NCBI RefSeq assembly: GCF_900169305.1
Contig: NZ_FWDP01000004.1
Span: forward strand, 992,001 to 1,056,000
DNA length: 64,000 bases
Source: Marinilactibacillus piezotolerans
Lineage (GTDB): Bacteria > Bacillota > Bacilli > Lactobacillales > Carnobacteriaceae_A
Reading direction: 5' to 3'
The notes beneath the pieces are model-generated. The model did not search any database. It saw nothing but the letters and a program-made list of their open reading frames with translations, and had not been told where the DNA came from. Positions 11,342 through 53,888 of the stretch are shown piece after piece (position 1 is the first letter of the stretch; each line of letters begins with the position of its first letter). A program made the translations under genes and the position numbers.

Positions 11342-11414
11342 ACAAATACATCGTCAGACTATCCTGAAAGTATCGTTAAAGAGACTCCCAGAATAATGAT
11401 TGTGTAGATTATAT

Positions 11415-11522
11415 CGTCTTCTTCCATCCAGACTATACTGTCGGCTTCGGAATCTAACCGAATCTGCCATAAGGCTCGTGGGCTTTACCACCGGTAGGGA
11501 CTTGCACCCTGCCCTGAAGACT
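11415..11522 (-). ncRNA. FMN riboswitch (RFN element)
   Basis: Minus-strand reading gives the invariant blocks GGGCAGGGTG, TCCCTACCGG, AGCCCACGAGCC, GATTCGG, CCGACAGTATAGTCTGGATG and the closing stem between AGTCTTC and GAAGAAGAC. It heads ribD-ribE-ribBA-ribH-HAD, so high FMN should stop transcription at 11307-11341. Confidence 0.97.
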
Positions 11523-11538
11523 ATTAAGTTATAGTAAG

Positions 11539-16608: not shown

Positions 16609-16707
16609 TAATAGGGTACAAATGACATTTTTTCAGTCACCATTATTAGTATAGTCATTTTAGTGAAAAATTTAATAAAACGTAAATATACATATGGAGG
16701 CGGTCAA

Positions 16708-17622
16708 ATGGAAATGATCAAAGCAAGAGAAAAACCAGCGCTGCTGACTATACTGGAACTGCTGGACAAGCGCATGACTCTTTCTTCTGCAGAAAAACAG
16801 CACTTATATGCTATGTCAAAAGGATACGATGGAGAAGTTTTGTTTGATTCAATGATAGAAAAGTATATTGATACTGATGTTCTAATATTAAATGATCTGT
16901 CTCTGATTTCAGGCACTACGCCTTTTCAGATAGATTCTGTCGTGCTGACATCGGATACGCTTTATCTTTATGAAGTCAAAAACTTCGAGGGAAAATACAC
17001 CAATCGATCTGGCCAATTTCACTCTGGGTCCGGCCAGGAACTGATCAACCCTGTTAATCAGTTAAGCAGGACAGCAACTCTTCTTTCCAAAATGCTAAAA
17101 AAATGGAAGCTTACTATACCGGTTCAAACAGCAGTCGTTTTCGTCAATCCCACATTTGTCCTTTACGAGGCTGAAGAACATCATCCTTTTATTTTCCCCT
17201 CGCAAATCGCAACGCACTTTACTGCTGTGAACCAGCGAAAAGGACCTCTGTCAACCAAACATCATTCTATAGCTCAGAAATTGATGGAAGAGACTCAAAA
17301 AGAACTGCCTTATCGAAGGCAGTTACCGTACTATGATTTTAATGAACTTAAGAAAGGATTGCCTTGCAGTCGTTGCGGATCTTTCGACTTGAAACACACA
17401 ACCAAAAAAAGCCGCTGCCAAGTCTGCGATACTGTTACCTCAGTGAATGAACTAGTGTTGGCTCAGGTCAAGGCATTCAAGATCCTCTTCCCTGATAGAC
17501 TTGTTACAAGTAATAACATATATGACTGGTGCAACAGCATGCTCCCAAAAAGAAGGATAACCGCCATTTTAAATACTGCATATAAAAGAAAAGGTCATTC
17601 CAAGGCAACTCACTACTGTTGA
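16708..17622 (+). CDS. NERD-domain protein with C-terminal zinc ribbon
   Basis: A 304-aa protein. Residues about 40-160 form a NERD (nuclease-related) domain with GYDGEVLFDSMI, a central IDSVVLTSDTLYLYEVKNFEG (Asp and Glu-x-Lys, the PD-(D/E)XK core), and NPVNQLSRTATLL. A zinc ribbon CSRCGS..CQVC follows, then a small C-terminal helical region. NERD proteins are suspected nucleases but are rarely tested. A start at 16663 is open, but GGAGG at 16696-16700 fits the ATG at 16708. Divergent from marR; monocistronic, with a terminator at 17647. Confidence 0.8.
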   Translation: MEMIKAREKPALLTILELLDKRMTLSSAEKQHLYAMSKGYDGEVLFDSMIEKYIDTDVLILNDLSLISGTTPFQIDSVVLTSDTLYLYEVKNFEGKYTNRSGQFHSGSGQELINPVNQLSRTATLLSKMLKKWKLTIPVQTAVVFVNPTFVLYEAEEHHPFIFPSQIATHFTAVNQRKGPLSTKHHSIAQKLMEETQKELPYRRQLPYYDFNELKKGLPCSRCGSFDLKHTTKKSRCQVCDTVTSVNELVLAQVKAFKILFPDRLVTSNNIYDWCNSMLPKRRITAILNTAYKRKGHSKATHYC

Positions 17623-17646: not shown

Positions 17647-17677
17647 GAAAAGACTTATCGCAATAAGTCTTTTTTCA
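17647..17677 (+). terminator. Terminator of the NERD gene
   Basis: AAAAGACTTAT/ATAAGTCTTTT with loop CGCA and a T-run, 25 bp after the stop codon. The arms are symmetrical, so it may also work on the other strand. Confidence 0.85.
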
Positions 17678-17683
17678 TTATTC

Positions 17684-18305
17684 AGAACCAGTTCGAGTGT
17701 TAGACTTTCAAATTTTAGTAGATTCAGCTTTTTTGCGACTAGTCCTGGGGGAATGCTTTGTTTAACTAGTCGCTATATCGCTTTTGCGACTAGTTCTGAA
17801 GGCAACTCTTCTTTAACTAGTCGCTATATCGCTTTTGTGACTAGTTCTGAAGGCTGCTCTTCTTTAACTAGTCACTATAATGCTTTTGCGACTAGTTCTG
17901 AAGGCTGCTCTTCTTTAACTAGTCATTATAATGCTTTTGCGACTAGTTCTGAGGGCTGCTCTTCTTTAACTAGTCACTATAATGCTTTTGCGACTAGTTC
18001 TGTGGGCTGCTCTTCTTTAACTAGTCGCTATAACGCTTTTGCGACTAGTTCTGAAGGCAACTCTTCTTTAACTAGTCGCTATATCGCTTTTGTGACTAGT
18101 TCTGAAGGCAACTCTTCTTTAACTAGTCGCTATATCGCTTTTGTGACTAGTTCTGAAGGCAACTCTTCTTTAACTAGTCGCTATATCGCTTTTGTGACTA
18201 GTTCTGAGGGCTGCTCTTTTTTAACTAGTCGCTATATCGCTTTTGCGACTAGTTCTGAGACTGCCTTGCTATGAACTGGTTCCAATACTGCTTTAGAAAC
18301 CAGTT
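17684..18305. repeat. Tandem array of 51-bp units with palindromic arms
   Basis: Twelve units in exact 51-bp register. Each unit is a right arm (typically GCGACTAGTT), a 19-base spacer (like CTGAAGGCAACTCTTCTTT), a left arm (typically AACTAGTCGC) and a 12-base spacer (TATATCGCTTTT). The arms are reverse complements, so the RNA or single strand can fold as a row of 10-bp hairpins in two alternative pairings. Arm variants occur (GTGACTAGTT, AACTAGTCAC). At the ends the arms change together to GAAACCAGTT/AACTGGTTCC in the same register, which nearly keeps the pairing. It lies between the convergent NERD and degV genes. Since 51 is a multiple of three, one frame is open (17-residue repeats such as LTSRYIAFATSSEG), but no RBS precedes it. 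Confidence 0.9.
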
Positions 18306-18384
18306 TTGCAATTAATATAATGAAAGACTCGATTCTTTAAAGACTCTATAGTTATTCTCTAACTTTATCCCTGACCTCACCACT

Positions 18385-19245
18385 TTAACCAGCTGTTTTT
18401 TCAATCCCTGTAATACCAATCGCTCCGGGACCGCCATGGCTGGAGATTACAGCACCCGCCTGCATCCATCTGGTTTTTTGAACACCATTTTCTTTCAACA
18501 GACCGCTAATCACCTCTTTCTGACTGTCTTCGACACCCGGAGGACTTACTATCAGAACGGTATCCGGGTTAATGTTATAGCTTTGGAAAAAATGATTCAC
18601 CATCTTTTTCAAGCAGTTATCAAAAGATCCACGGTACTTCTTCTCCGGGACCAGGTATCCATTTTCTAAAACAATTGACGGCTGTATCTTCAACAAATTT
18701 GCTCCATGAAAAGCTAGACTTGAGACTCGGCCGCCCGCTTTCAAATATTGAAGAGTTTTAGGCAGAAAAACCATATGAGTGCGTTCTCTAACATCTTCGA
18801 CAAAAGCAATAATGGCTTCAGGACTTGTATCAGGATTTTCTTCAATAAATTGAGCTGTTGCTTTAACAATAGCGGCTGCTCCAATAGAGACATGTTTGGA
18901 GTCTACAAGGTAGACGTGTTTAAAGTCTTGAGCTGCAAGTTTTGCAGCATTGAAGGAAACCGTTGTTACTGCAGAATACCCAATGTGGATGATCGTTGCA
19001 TCTGGATGTTCAGCAAAAACTTGTTTGAAACCTTCGGTATTATCTTGGGGTGAAGAACCAGATGTTTTAGGTAGATTCCCTGTTGTTTCAAAATAATCAA
19101 AAGCTTTCTGAACATCAAAACTACCATCAGGAAGAGTTTGATCCCCCATTGTTACATGCATCGGAATGACTTGTATATTGTAGCGATCAATTATTTCTTT
19201 AGATAAATCTGAACCACTTTCAGTTGTGATAATATATTTTTTCAT
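18385..19245 (-). CDS. DegV-family fatty-acid-binding protein
   Basis: A 286-aa DegV (FakB-like) protein. Family marks are ITTESGSDL near the N-terminus, the KTSGSSPQD loop that contacts the fatty-acid carboxylate, and IGYSAVTTVSFNAA. In Firmicutes such proteins present fatty acids to the kinase FakA for phosphorylation and phospholipid synthesis. No fakA is nearby, as usual for FakB genes. GGAGG lies 6 bases before the ATG at 19245; the codon before it (TTG) is also in frame but less likely. Monocistronic, with a promoter at 19314-19342. Confidence 0.9.
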   Translation of the reverse strand: MKKYIITTESGSDLSKEIIDRYNIQVIPMHVTMGDQTLPDGSFDVQKAFDYFETTGNLPKTSGSSPQDNTEGFKQVFAEHPDATIIHIGYSAVTTVSFNAAKLAAQDFKHVYLVDSKHVSIGAAAIVKATAQFIEENPDTSPEAIIAFVEDVRERTHMVFLPKTLQYLKAGGRVSSLAFHGANLLKIQPSIVLENGYLVPEKKYRGSFDNCLKKMVNHFFQSYNINPDTVLIVSPPGVEDSQKEVISGLLKENGVQKTRWMQAGAVISSHGGPGAIGITGIEKTAG

Positions 19246-19313
19246 CAATATCCTCCATTATTTTGGTAGATTATAGTTCCACTACTAACTTCAGTATTCA
19301 ATATTTTAATTGT

Positions 19314-23652: not shown

Positions 23653-23771
23653 AAGATTAAATGTTTGATTCATGTATACGTTTTACAAGGCATAATGAAA
23701 CTGCCTGTATTTAAAACCTATACCCATTCAATGAAACCACTGAATGCTTTTCGTCAAAAAAATGAAAGTCG

Positions 23772-23862
23772 ACTCCACTTTCCTACGCTGGTATTAACCA
23801 GATCAGGTTCTAAGGGATCAAGGCACAGCCTTATCTCAGCTCAATGAGCACCCCTAGTGGAT
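23772..23862 (-). ncRNA. TPP riboswitch (THI element)
   Basis: Minus strand carries CCACTAGGGGTGC, the thi box GCTGAGATAAGG, and AACCTGATCTGGTTAATACCAGCG ending GGAAAGTGG, the full conserved core. It heads tenA-ykoE-ykoD-ykoC, so thiamine pyrophosphate should shut off salvage and uptake. Confidence 0.97.
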
Positions 23863-23881
23863 TTCTTATTTGATTGAGTTT

Positions 23882-53785: not shown

Positions 53786-53795
53786 ATACTCAAAT

Positions 53796-53851
53796 GGGAA
53801 TGAGGTTCTCCCAAGGCGATGCCTAAACTGCTGAAAAGCTGATGACTTCTG
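53796..53851 (+). ncRNA. Fluoride riboswitch (crcB RNA)
   Basis: GGGAATGAGGTTCTCCC, then TAAACTGC-TGAAAA-GCTGATGACTTCT, matches the fluoride aptamer with conserved ATGAGG, AAACTGC and GCTGATGNCTTCT blocks (compare Thermotoga petrophila). Unusual: a small extra hairpin GGC-GAT-GCC is inserted between the first stem and AAACTGC. It is followed by a terminator and a cation/proton antiporter gene, a known class of fluoride-controlled gene. Confidence 0.8.
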
Positions 53852-53888
53852 TGATGACACTGTTCATCCCGGAGTCTCGGCTTTTTTT
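53844..53888 (+). terminator. Fluoride riboswitch terminator
   Basis: GACTTC (53844-53849), also part of the aptamer, pairs with GGAGTC (53871-53876); an inner GATGA/TCATC hairpin sits inside and TTTTTTT follows. The sharing of GACTTC makes aptamer and terminator exclusive. Confidence 0.7.

Follow-up and report, generated by a model that had tools for sequence, protein, structure and literature searches.

A NERD-domain gene adjoining a 51-bp array of inverted sites in Marinilactibacillus piezotolerans, a candidate two-part module

The array and its neighbours

The window, a 64,000-nucleotide stretch of Marinilactibacillus piezotolerans contig NZ_FWDP01000004.1, contains a 51-bp tandem array between two convergent genes, one on the forward strand coding for a NERD-domain protein (here NERD-A) and the other on the reverse strand for a DegV-family protein. 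The features of the locus, in window coordinates, are as follows.

16663..17622, + strand: NERD-A gene, a 319-aa open reading frame from GTG (Pfam NERD PF08378, E 8.3e-16)
17650..17675, + strand: terminator-like hairpin with a T run, 3' of the NERD-A gene (by eye; not listed by the terminator scanner, which demands three G-C pairs)
17683..17692, + strand: degenerate leading forward arm AGAACCAGTT (by eye; about one base out of register)
17731..18306, no strand assigned: window array of 23 alternating 15-bp arms, arm consensus in this genome TATTGNGACTAGTTC
17731..17745, + strand: first in-register forward arm (arm chaining)
17763..17777, - strand: first reverse arm (arm chaining)
18385..19248, - strand: DegV-family gene, the convergent neighbour (Pfam DegV PF02645, E 1.6e-50)

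TRF reports the array at 17731-18258 with a period of 51, 10.4 copies, 93% matches, 0% indels and a score of 809, and chaining of the 15-bp arms gives 17731-18306, with arms alternating in orientation and every step exact (32 bp from forward to reverse and 19 bp from reverse to forward, for a sum of 51). The initial annotation is right about the setting between convergent genes, though it does not name the NERD gene, and also about the arms, their variants and the divergence of the end units. Its count of twelve exact units is slightly generous, because the exact 51-bp register extends over 11 full units and one extra arm, with the further degenerate arm about one base off register. It had also pointed to an open repeat-peptide frame; a 173-aa frame is indeed present (17753-18274), but a coding reading fails on the count of frames, since in just 4 of 35 arrays of at least 240 bp does a frame run open through the whole array, and the window array is not one of the four. 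The array is beyond chance, because eight base-shuffled loci (60,808 bases) yield zero arm chains and arrays built alike around other loops are present in the window's genome and in relatives.

We do not regard the DegV gene as belonging to the module proposed below. Its product is 81% identical to a protein of Sedimentibacter hydroxybenzoicus, in a searched collection that may omit the window's near relatives.

The array family and its arms

At least six arrays are present in the window's genome (G000), at C1:1009.7 kb (the window array), C1:1312.7, C2:152.8, C2:238.0, C2:262.4 and C3:334.7 kb, a lower bound in that 150 of 1547 first-look candidates were scored. Related arrays, which had been expected to tell against a chance expansion, are thus found in the same genome, and they are found also in relatives: a unit model built from sequence only places the family in 12 of the 27 genomes of the taxonomic family and in two genera of nine, with no array detected in three of the five genomes of the window's own genus. 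A two-unit model run over 295 genomes of the order adds a degenerate representative in G015, whose matches we kept, to give 13 of 27 family genomes; the strict filters of this search lose weak matches, and with them no match outside the taxonomic family was accepted. Matches in four genomes outside the two genera were rejected by eye. The matches at L180 and L181 look by eye like coding sequence, that at L182 (G283; two-unit model E 9.7e-4) is a CRISPR array whose repeat contains GGAACCAGTT and was taken as chance, and L183, a single dyad-like match, was also taken as chance. We rejected a plasmid or phage origin too, there being no array matches in plasmids or phages, no NERD matches when plasmids were searched with the window protein or when plasmids and phages were searched with L070, and neither an exact pattern match nor a confirmed NERD relative in IMG/VR.

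Array loci were taken from the 12 genomes and their arms chained to give 79 chains, the commonest size being 12 arms, from forward arm to reverse arm, or about 302 bp (18 of 79). In the consensus of the unit, TTTTGnGACTAGTTC and GAACTnGTCnCAAAA stand on either side of a free inner stretch, with about 17 inner and about 4 outer bases free; the symmetry of the arm matrix is not counted as evidence because units from both strands entered it. The dispersed arrays sit between called genes. Seven of the 79 lack a gene on one side, and of the other 72, by crude longest-ORF gene calls, convergent gaps hold 44 and divergent gaps 3, the background being 43 and 76 of 331 gene pairs. At some loci the outermost arm abuts the T run of a terminator, as judged by eye.

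The arms are the conserved part of the arrays. Across 12 orthologous array pairs (nine with both flanks conserved and three with one, some arrays being shared between pairs), the arms are 86% identical (1075/1248) and the loops and linkers together 65% (513/786), with inner loops at 67%, outer linkers at 54% and flanks at 77%. Unit number changes, as had been anticipated: two of the five displayed orthologous pairs differ by exactly one 51-bp gap, and array length varies widely.

The initial annotation favoured a folded form under selection, perhaps switching between two rows of hairpins, and this reading is not supported. In 18 arrays of exactly 12 arms, neighbouring inverted arms are no more alike than after shuffling (z -1.3 to 1.5); in these arrays like-oriented arms do resemble each other (forward-forward z up to 4.8, reverse-reverse up to 4.4), which we interpret as the mark of tandem duplication. 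An earlier count of 112 units, with kinship uncontrolled, gave a pairing deficit at position 7/31 (59 observed, 69 expected) and a modest pairing excess at 2/36, 1/37 and 5/33. RNA folding of five stretches is uneven (z -6.8, -6.0, -3.8, -0.3 and -8.1), being strong in some and absent in one. Because neighbouring arms do not covary, we no longer favour hairpins and regard the arms as putative inverted DNA-binding sites, which we read as one DNA site in alternating orientation. The suggestion of a protein-binding array, one of several made at the outset, is therefore the one retained.

One array offers a view of possible movement. The array of G025 (L088) is absent from the orthologous convergent gap in G024 and in G017 (L225, L227). 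The difference between L088 and G024 is about 590 bp, wider than the array, and the flank matches overlap by five bases within a T run. At this junction, the one examined base by base, there is no convincing target-site duplication (five shared T alone), and 124 flanks share no motif beyond A/T runs. A transposon with fixed ends was rejected on these grounds.

NERD genes and their arrays

Although the NERD-A reading frame opens with GTG, translation may actually begin at ATG 16708 or 16714, since homology begins at about 16717. The protein scores 58.9 bits against Pfam NERD (gathering cut-off 22.1), and a Pfam scan of six NERD proteins finds that all pass for NERD and that no other domain passes its cut-off. 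The (D/E)xK signature and acidic residues of the PD-(D/E)XK superfamily are present in NERD-A, and E40, D73, E86, K88 and four cysteines (numbered from 16717) are invariant in 56 of 56 homologues, all selected as intact reading frames. An AlphaFold2 model of NERD-A has a pLDDT of 93.3, and its residues 1-177 match PD-(D/E)XK nucleases at a middling level, best with Can2 (VIA Z 8.4), followed by VC1899, Cdn1 and McrC; Foldseek returns one match at E 0.001 or better, to an R2 retrotransposon protein. The zinc ribbon has a weak sequence match to RNA-polymerase and TFIIB ribbons. The C-terminal part modelled alone (pLDDT 85.1) has weak winged-helix matches (Z 5.9 or less) and no Foldseek match at E 0.001; fold families missing among the structural matches are not counted as evidence. 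NERD-A is accordingly described here as having a predicted PD-(D/E)XK-type nuclease domain and zinc ribbon, and a probable C-terminal winged helix. Homologues are present in 22 of the 27 family genomes, with up to 11 match rows per genome and several with internal stops.

A window-type array lies directly 3' of NERD-A and of each of its five closest homologues (51-57% identical; six of six loci), and at none of 24 other NERD loci in flanks of up to 1.5 kb. The six loci represent at least three gene neighbourhoods. In G000 the gene is beside DegV, and in G025 and G026 it lies between a conserved gene and an operon that we take to be the SUF operon, an arrangement that in G024 is partly rearranged; in G022 and G006 it is elsewhere, outside both of these neighbourhoods.

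Many of the other NERD genes adjoin tandem arrays of other sequence, as identified by lag autocorrelation. When a locus must exceed the 99th percentile of 460 control flanks, an array is present at 65 of 90 NERD loci and at 3 of 93 control genes (p 1e-24), the controls being genes of at least 450 bp in the array loci, with flanks overlapping window-type arrays excluded. The 90 loci come from 117 NERD match rows, of which 27 were left out (fragmentary or distant ones and the broken G020 copy), and seven of the 90 have 3' flanks that are too short. In other versions of the test the count is 57 of 90 when any lag is allowed and 62 of 90 for lags 51-53. NERD-linked arrays occur in all six genera having testable NERD loci (g1 5/5, g3 48/70, g4 2/4, g5 5/6, g6 3/3 and g9 2/2), and they are 3' of the gene only at 36 loci, 5' only at 24 and on both sides at five. 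The association of gene and array is well supported. Two of the 65 loci (L299 and L300) pass solely via a period-42 stretch that resembles repetitive coding sequence, and 25 of the 90 have no array, which counts against the module reading.

Several arrays depart from the window type. One is beside a second NERD gene of the window's genome (L271; G000:C2:31900-35900), on its 5' side, with a 52-bp period, about nine units and a different sequence. Further arrays, of period 51-52 but with units of other sequence, are present at L166 (about 19.6-20.0 kb), L230 (from 820) and L231 (from 138), on contigs without a detected NERD gene. The distant NERD genes of G012, G014 and part of G008 (L072, L074, L312-L314) have an array period of 40-41 rather than 51-53.

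The sequence of the array follows the NERD paralogue group. Taking as reference the 99th percentile of array similarity among pairs with less than 35% protein identity, it is exceeded by 18 of 31 pairs with at least 55% identity, by 7 of 65 at 45-55% and by 4 of 455 at 35-45%, such that array similarity climbs mainly above about 45-55%; the correlation is only rho 0.17 (Mantel 1 of 1000). By this comparison the arrays are specific to paralogue groups. Dyad symmetry of the array consensus exceeds the 95% level of a shuffled-column null in 30 of 58 NERD-linked arrays, and so not in all of them.

An intact cognate gene goes with longer arrays. In the six genomes whose NERD-A is intact, the 34 window-type arrays have a median length of 5.9 units, as against 2.9 units for the 39 arrays of the six genomes in which NERD-A is broken or not found, with 22 of 34 and 3 of 39, respectively, reaching 5.5 units; tested by genome, the difference has p 0.019. 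The comparison covers 73 of the 79 arrays, those at contig edges being excluded, and the arrays were listed at E limits from 0.01 to 0.3, those of G021 being taken from among the matches listed for it. For G026 and G020, which share the same search and the same limit, the medians are 5.9 and 2.3 units, whereas G006 goes against the trend, with NERD-A present yet short arrays (median 3.3). NERD-A is not needed for array persistence, since window-type arrays remain in genomes where it is not detected (G002, G017, G019, G021 and G023) or is broken (G020). Scored against the NERD-linked arrays of G022 and G006, dispersed arms from these two genomes reach 8.0 to 10.2 bits and those from G024, G025 and G026 lie at -0.7 to 3.5 bits; a genome's own NERD-linked array scores best with its dispersed arms in only two of six genomes. 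Array similarity and array length may partly mirror species relatedness, arrays and pairs not being independent, and shared ancestry could likewise account in part for the array-length and dispersed-arm results.

A candidate module and other readings

We lean, if only a little, towards a two-part module in which a NERD nuclease is associated with cognate, dispersed arrays of sites, an organization like that of REPtrons with an unrelated enzyme and an unrelated repeat. One part would be the NERD-domain protein, with its predicted PD-(D/E)XK-type nuclease domain, zinc ribbon and probable winged helix, and the other the inverted 15-bp sites, two per 51 bp, placed beside their own gene and in other, mostly convergent, gaps; most of the NERD paralogues examined do have an array with a sequence of its own. 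The C-terminal domains of NERD would bind the arms, nicking or cutting at the arms could then lead to recombination or copying, and these events would both keep arrays near six units and spread them. Binding, cleavage and function of NERD-A are in this sense what we infer. The module does not account for the restraint that a nuclease would need when its sites are in its own chromosome, which counts against it. Whether this describes a whole class, a PD-(D/E)XK counterpart of REPtrons in which each NERD paralogue reads its own inverted site and holds arrays at a set length, beside the gene and scattered, with the preferred 12-site array of about 302 bp hinting at a nucleoprotein of defined size, is to us evenly balanced.

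Overlapping with the module, which leaves benefit open, is a selfish repeat spread by NERD or by some other enzyme with no benefit to the cell. The multi-copy NERD genes (several with internal stops), the gap in G024 and G017 that lacks the G025 array, and the shorter arrays where NERD-A is missing are consistent with it, but there is no convincing duplication at the examined junction, array flanks share no motif other than A/T runs, and orthologous arrays stay in place with their arms conserved; we think it possible but rather unlikely. The arrays could instead be chromosome-structuring sites: a host protein bound to them would insulate convergent transcription or organise the nucleoid, and NERD would be either that binder or a bystander. 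The preponderance of convergent gaps, the arms abutting terminator T runs and the common 12-arm size all fit, although convergent gaps are where any repeat harms least, the distribution is patchy even within the window's genus, and the nuclease domain and paralogue-specific arrays are left unexplained, such that this reading seems unlikely.

The type III toxin-antitoxin system ToxIN is also described as having a nuclease gene and a repeat array side by side (PMC8860590). On this reading the array would be transcribed and its repeats would restrain the adjoining nuclease, and some of the arrays do fold strongly as RNA. The array is 3' alone at 36 of 65 loci, whereas ToxIN arrays are 5' of the toxin gene; moreover, the enzyme differs by Pfam (with only NERD and no ToxN-type toxin passing the cut-off in six proteins), arrays lie on either side of the gene, arrays of the same type occur elsewhere in the genome without it, and there is no covariation between arms, and we consider a ToxIN-like system improbable. 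There is some likeness to CRISPR as well, in that a dyad of about 34 bp is separated by spacers of about 17 bp, but the repeats are degenerate, and orthologous spacers (67% identical) have diverged through point changes without being exchanged. On the features tested, the array is neither a type III toxin-antitoxin locus nor a CRISPR. Rows of selected hairpins, or an ordinary VNTR between convergent genes, would account for the complementary consensus arms and the changing unit number; the lack of arm covariation, arm positions that stay fixed although loops and loci are unrelated, and the link of arrays to NERD genes make this very improbable.

The closest parallel is with RAYT/TnpA-REP systems, reported as having a DNA-processing gene beside its cognate inverted repeats, dispersed extragenic copies with regular alternating spacing, and coevolution of gene and repeat (PMC2817692, PMC8266576). 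NERD-A similarly adjoins its cognate repeats at six of six loci, there are dispersed extragenic copies (five further arrays in G000), and spacing is regular with alternating orientation. There are also clear differences. RAYTs are described as flanked by repeats on both sides (PMC2817692) and NERD-A on one side only; a HuH (Y1) domain is not found by Pfam, the NERD enzyme being of the PD-(D/E)XK, zinc ribbon and probable winged-helix type; the arm consensus lacks GTAG in each of the 12 genomes; the period of NERD arrays is fixed, at 51-53 or 40-42 bp; and from a few to about 17 arrays were fetched per genome, compared with the more than 100 REPs given in the RAYT paper. By analogy the module would work like a REPtron, but without a HuH domain and a GTAG head it is not one.

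NERD domains are listed for the Mokosh type I and Nhi-like defence systems (PMC10952713) and occur in SmdA, in a 2022 paper that describes NERD as having had no experimental study before its own (PMC9040797). The proteins described here differ from these in carrying a zinc ribbon and, probably, a winged helix along with the NERD domain, in having many paralogues and in often being encoded next to an array. In a limited literature search we found no record of such a gene beside a repeat array, and the one paper found to mention both NERD and a repeat array names NERD in a legend that lists domains. A nuclease-like gene with an array of paired inverted 15-base sites every 51 bases, and with arrays of these sites at other chromosomal positions, would thus seem to belong to an apparently unreported kind of bacterial module. 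If correct, it would give NERD proteins a molecular context, and bacteria would have a second, enzymatically unrelated, way to keep a gene with its own interspersed repeats. NERD paralogues with different array sequences would be a natural set of matched nuclease/site pairs, and genomes with and without the gene make array maintenance directly testable.

Elsewhere in the window we note FMN, TPP and fluoride riboswitches, at 11412-11525 (- strand), 23763-23865 (- strand) and 53787-53858 (+ strand) respectively, all of which are above their Rfam gathering scores.
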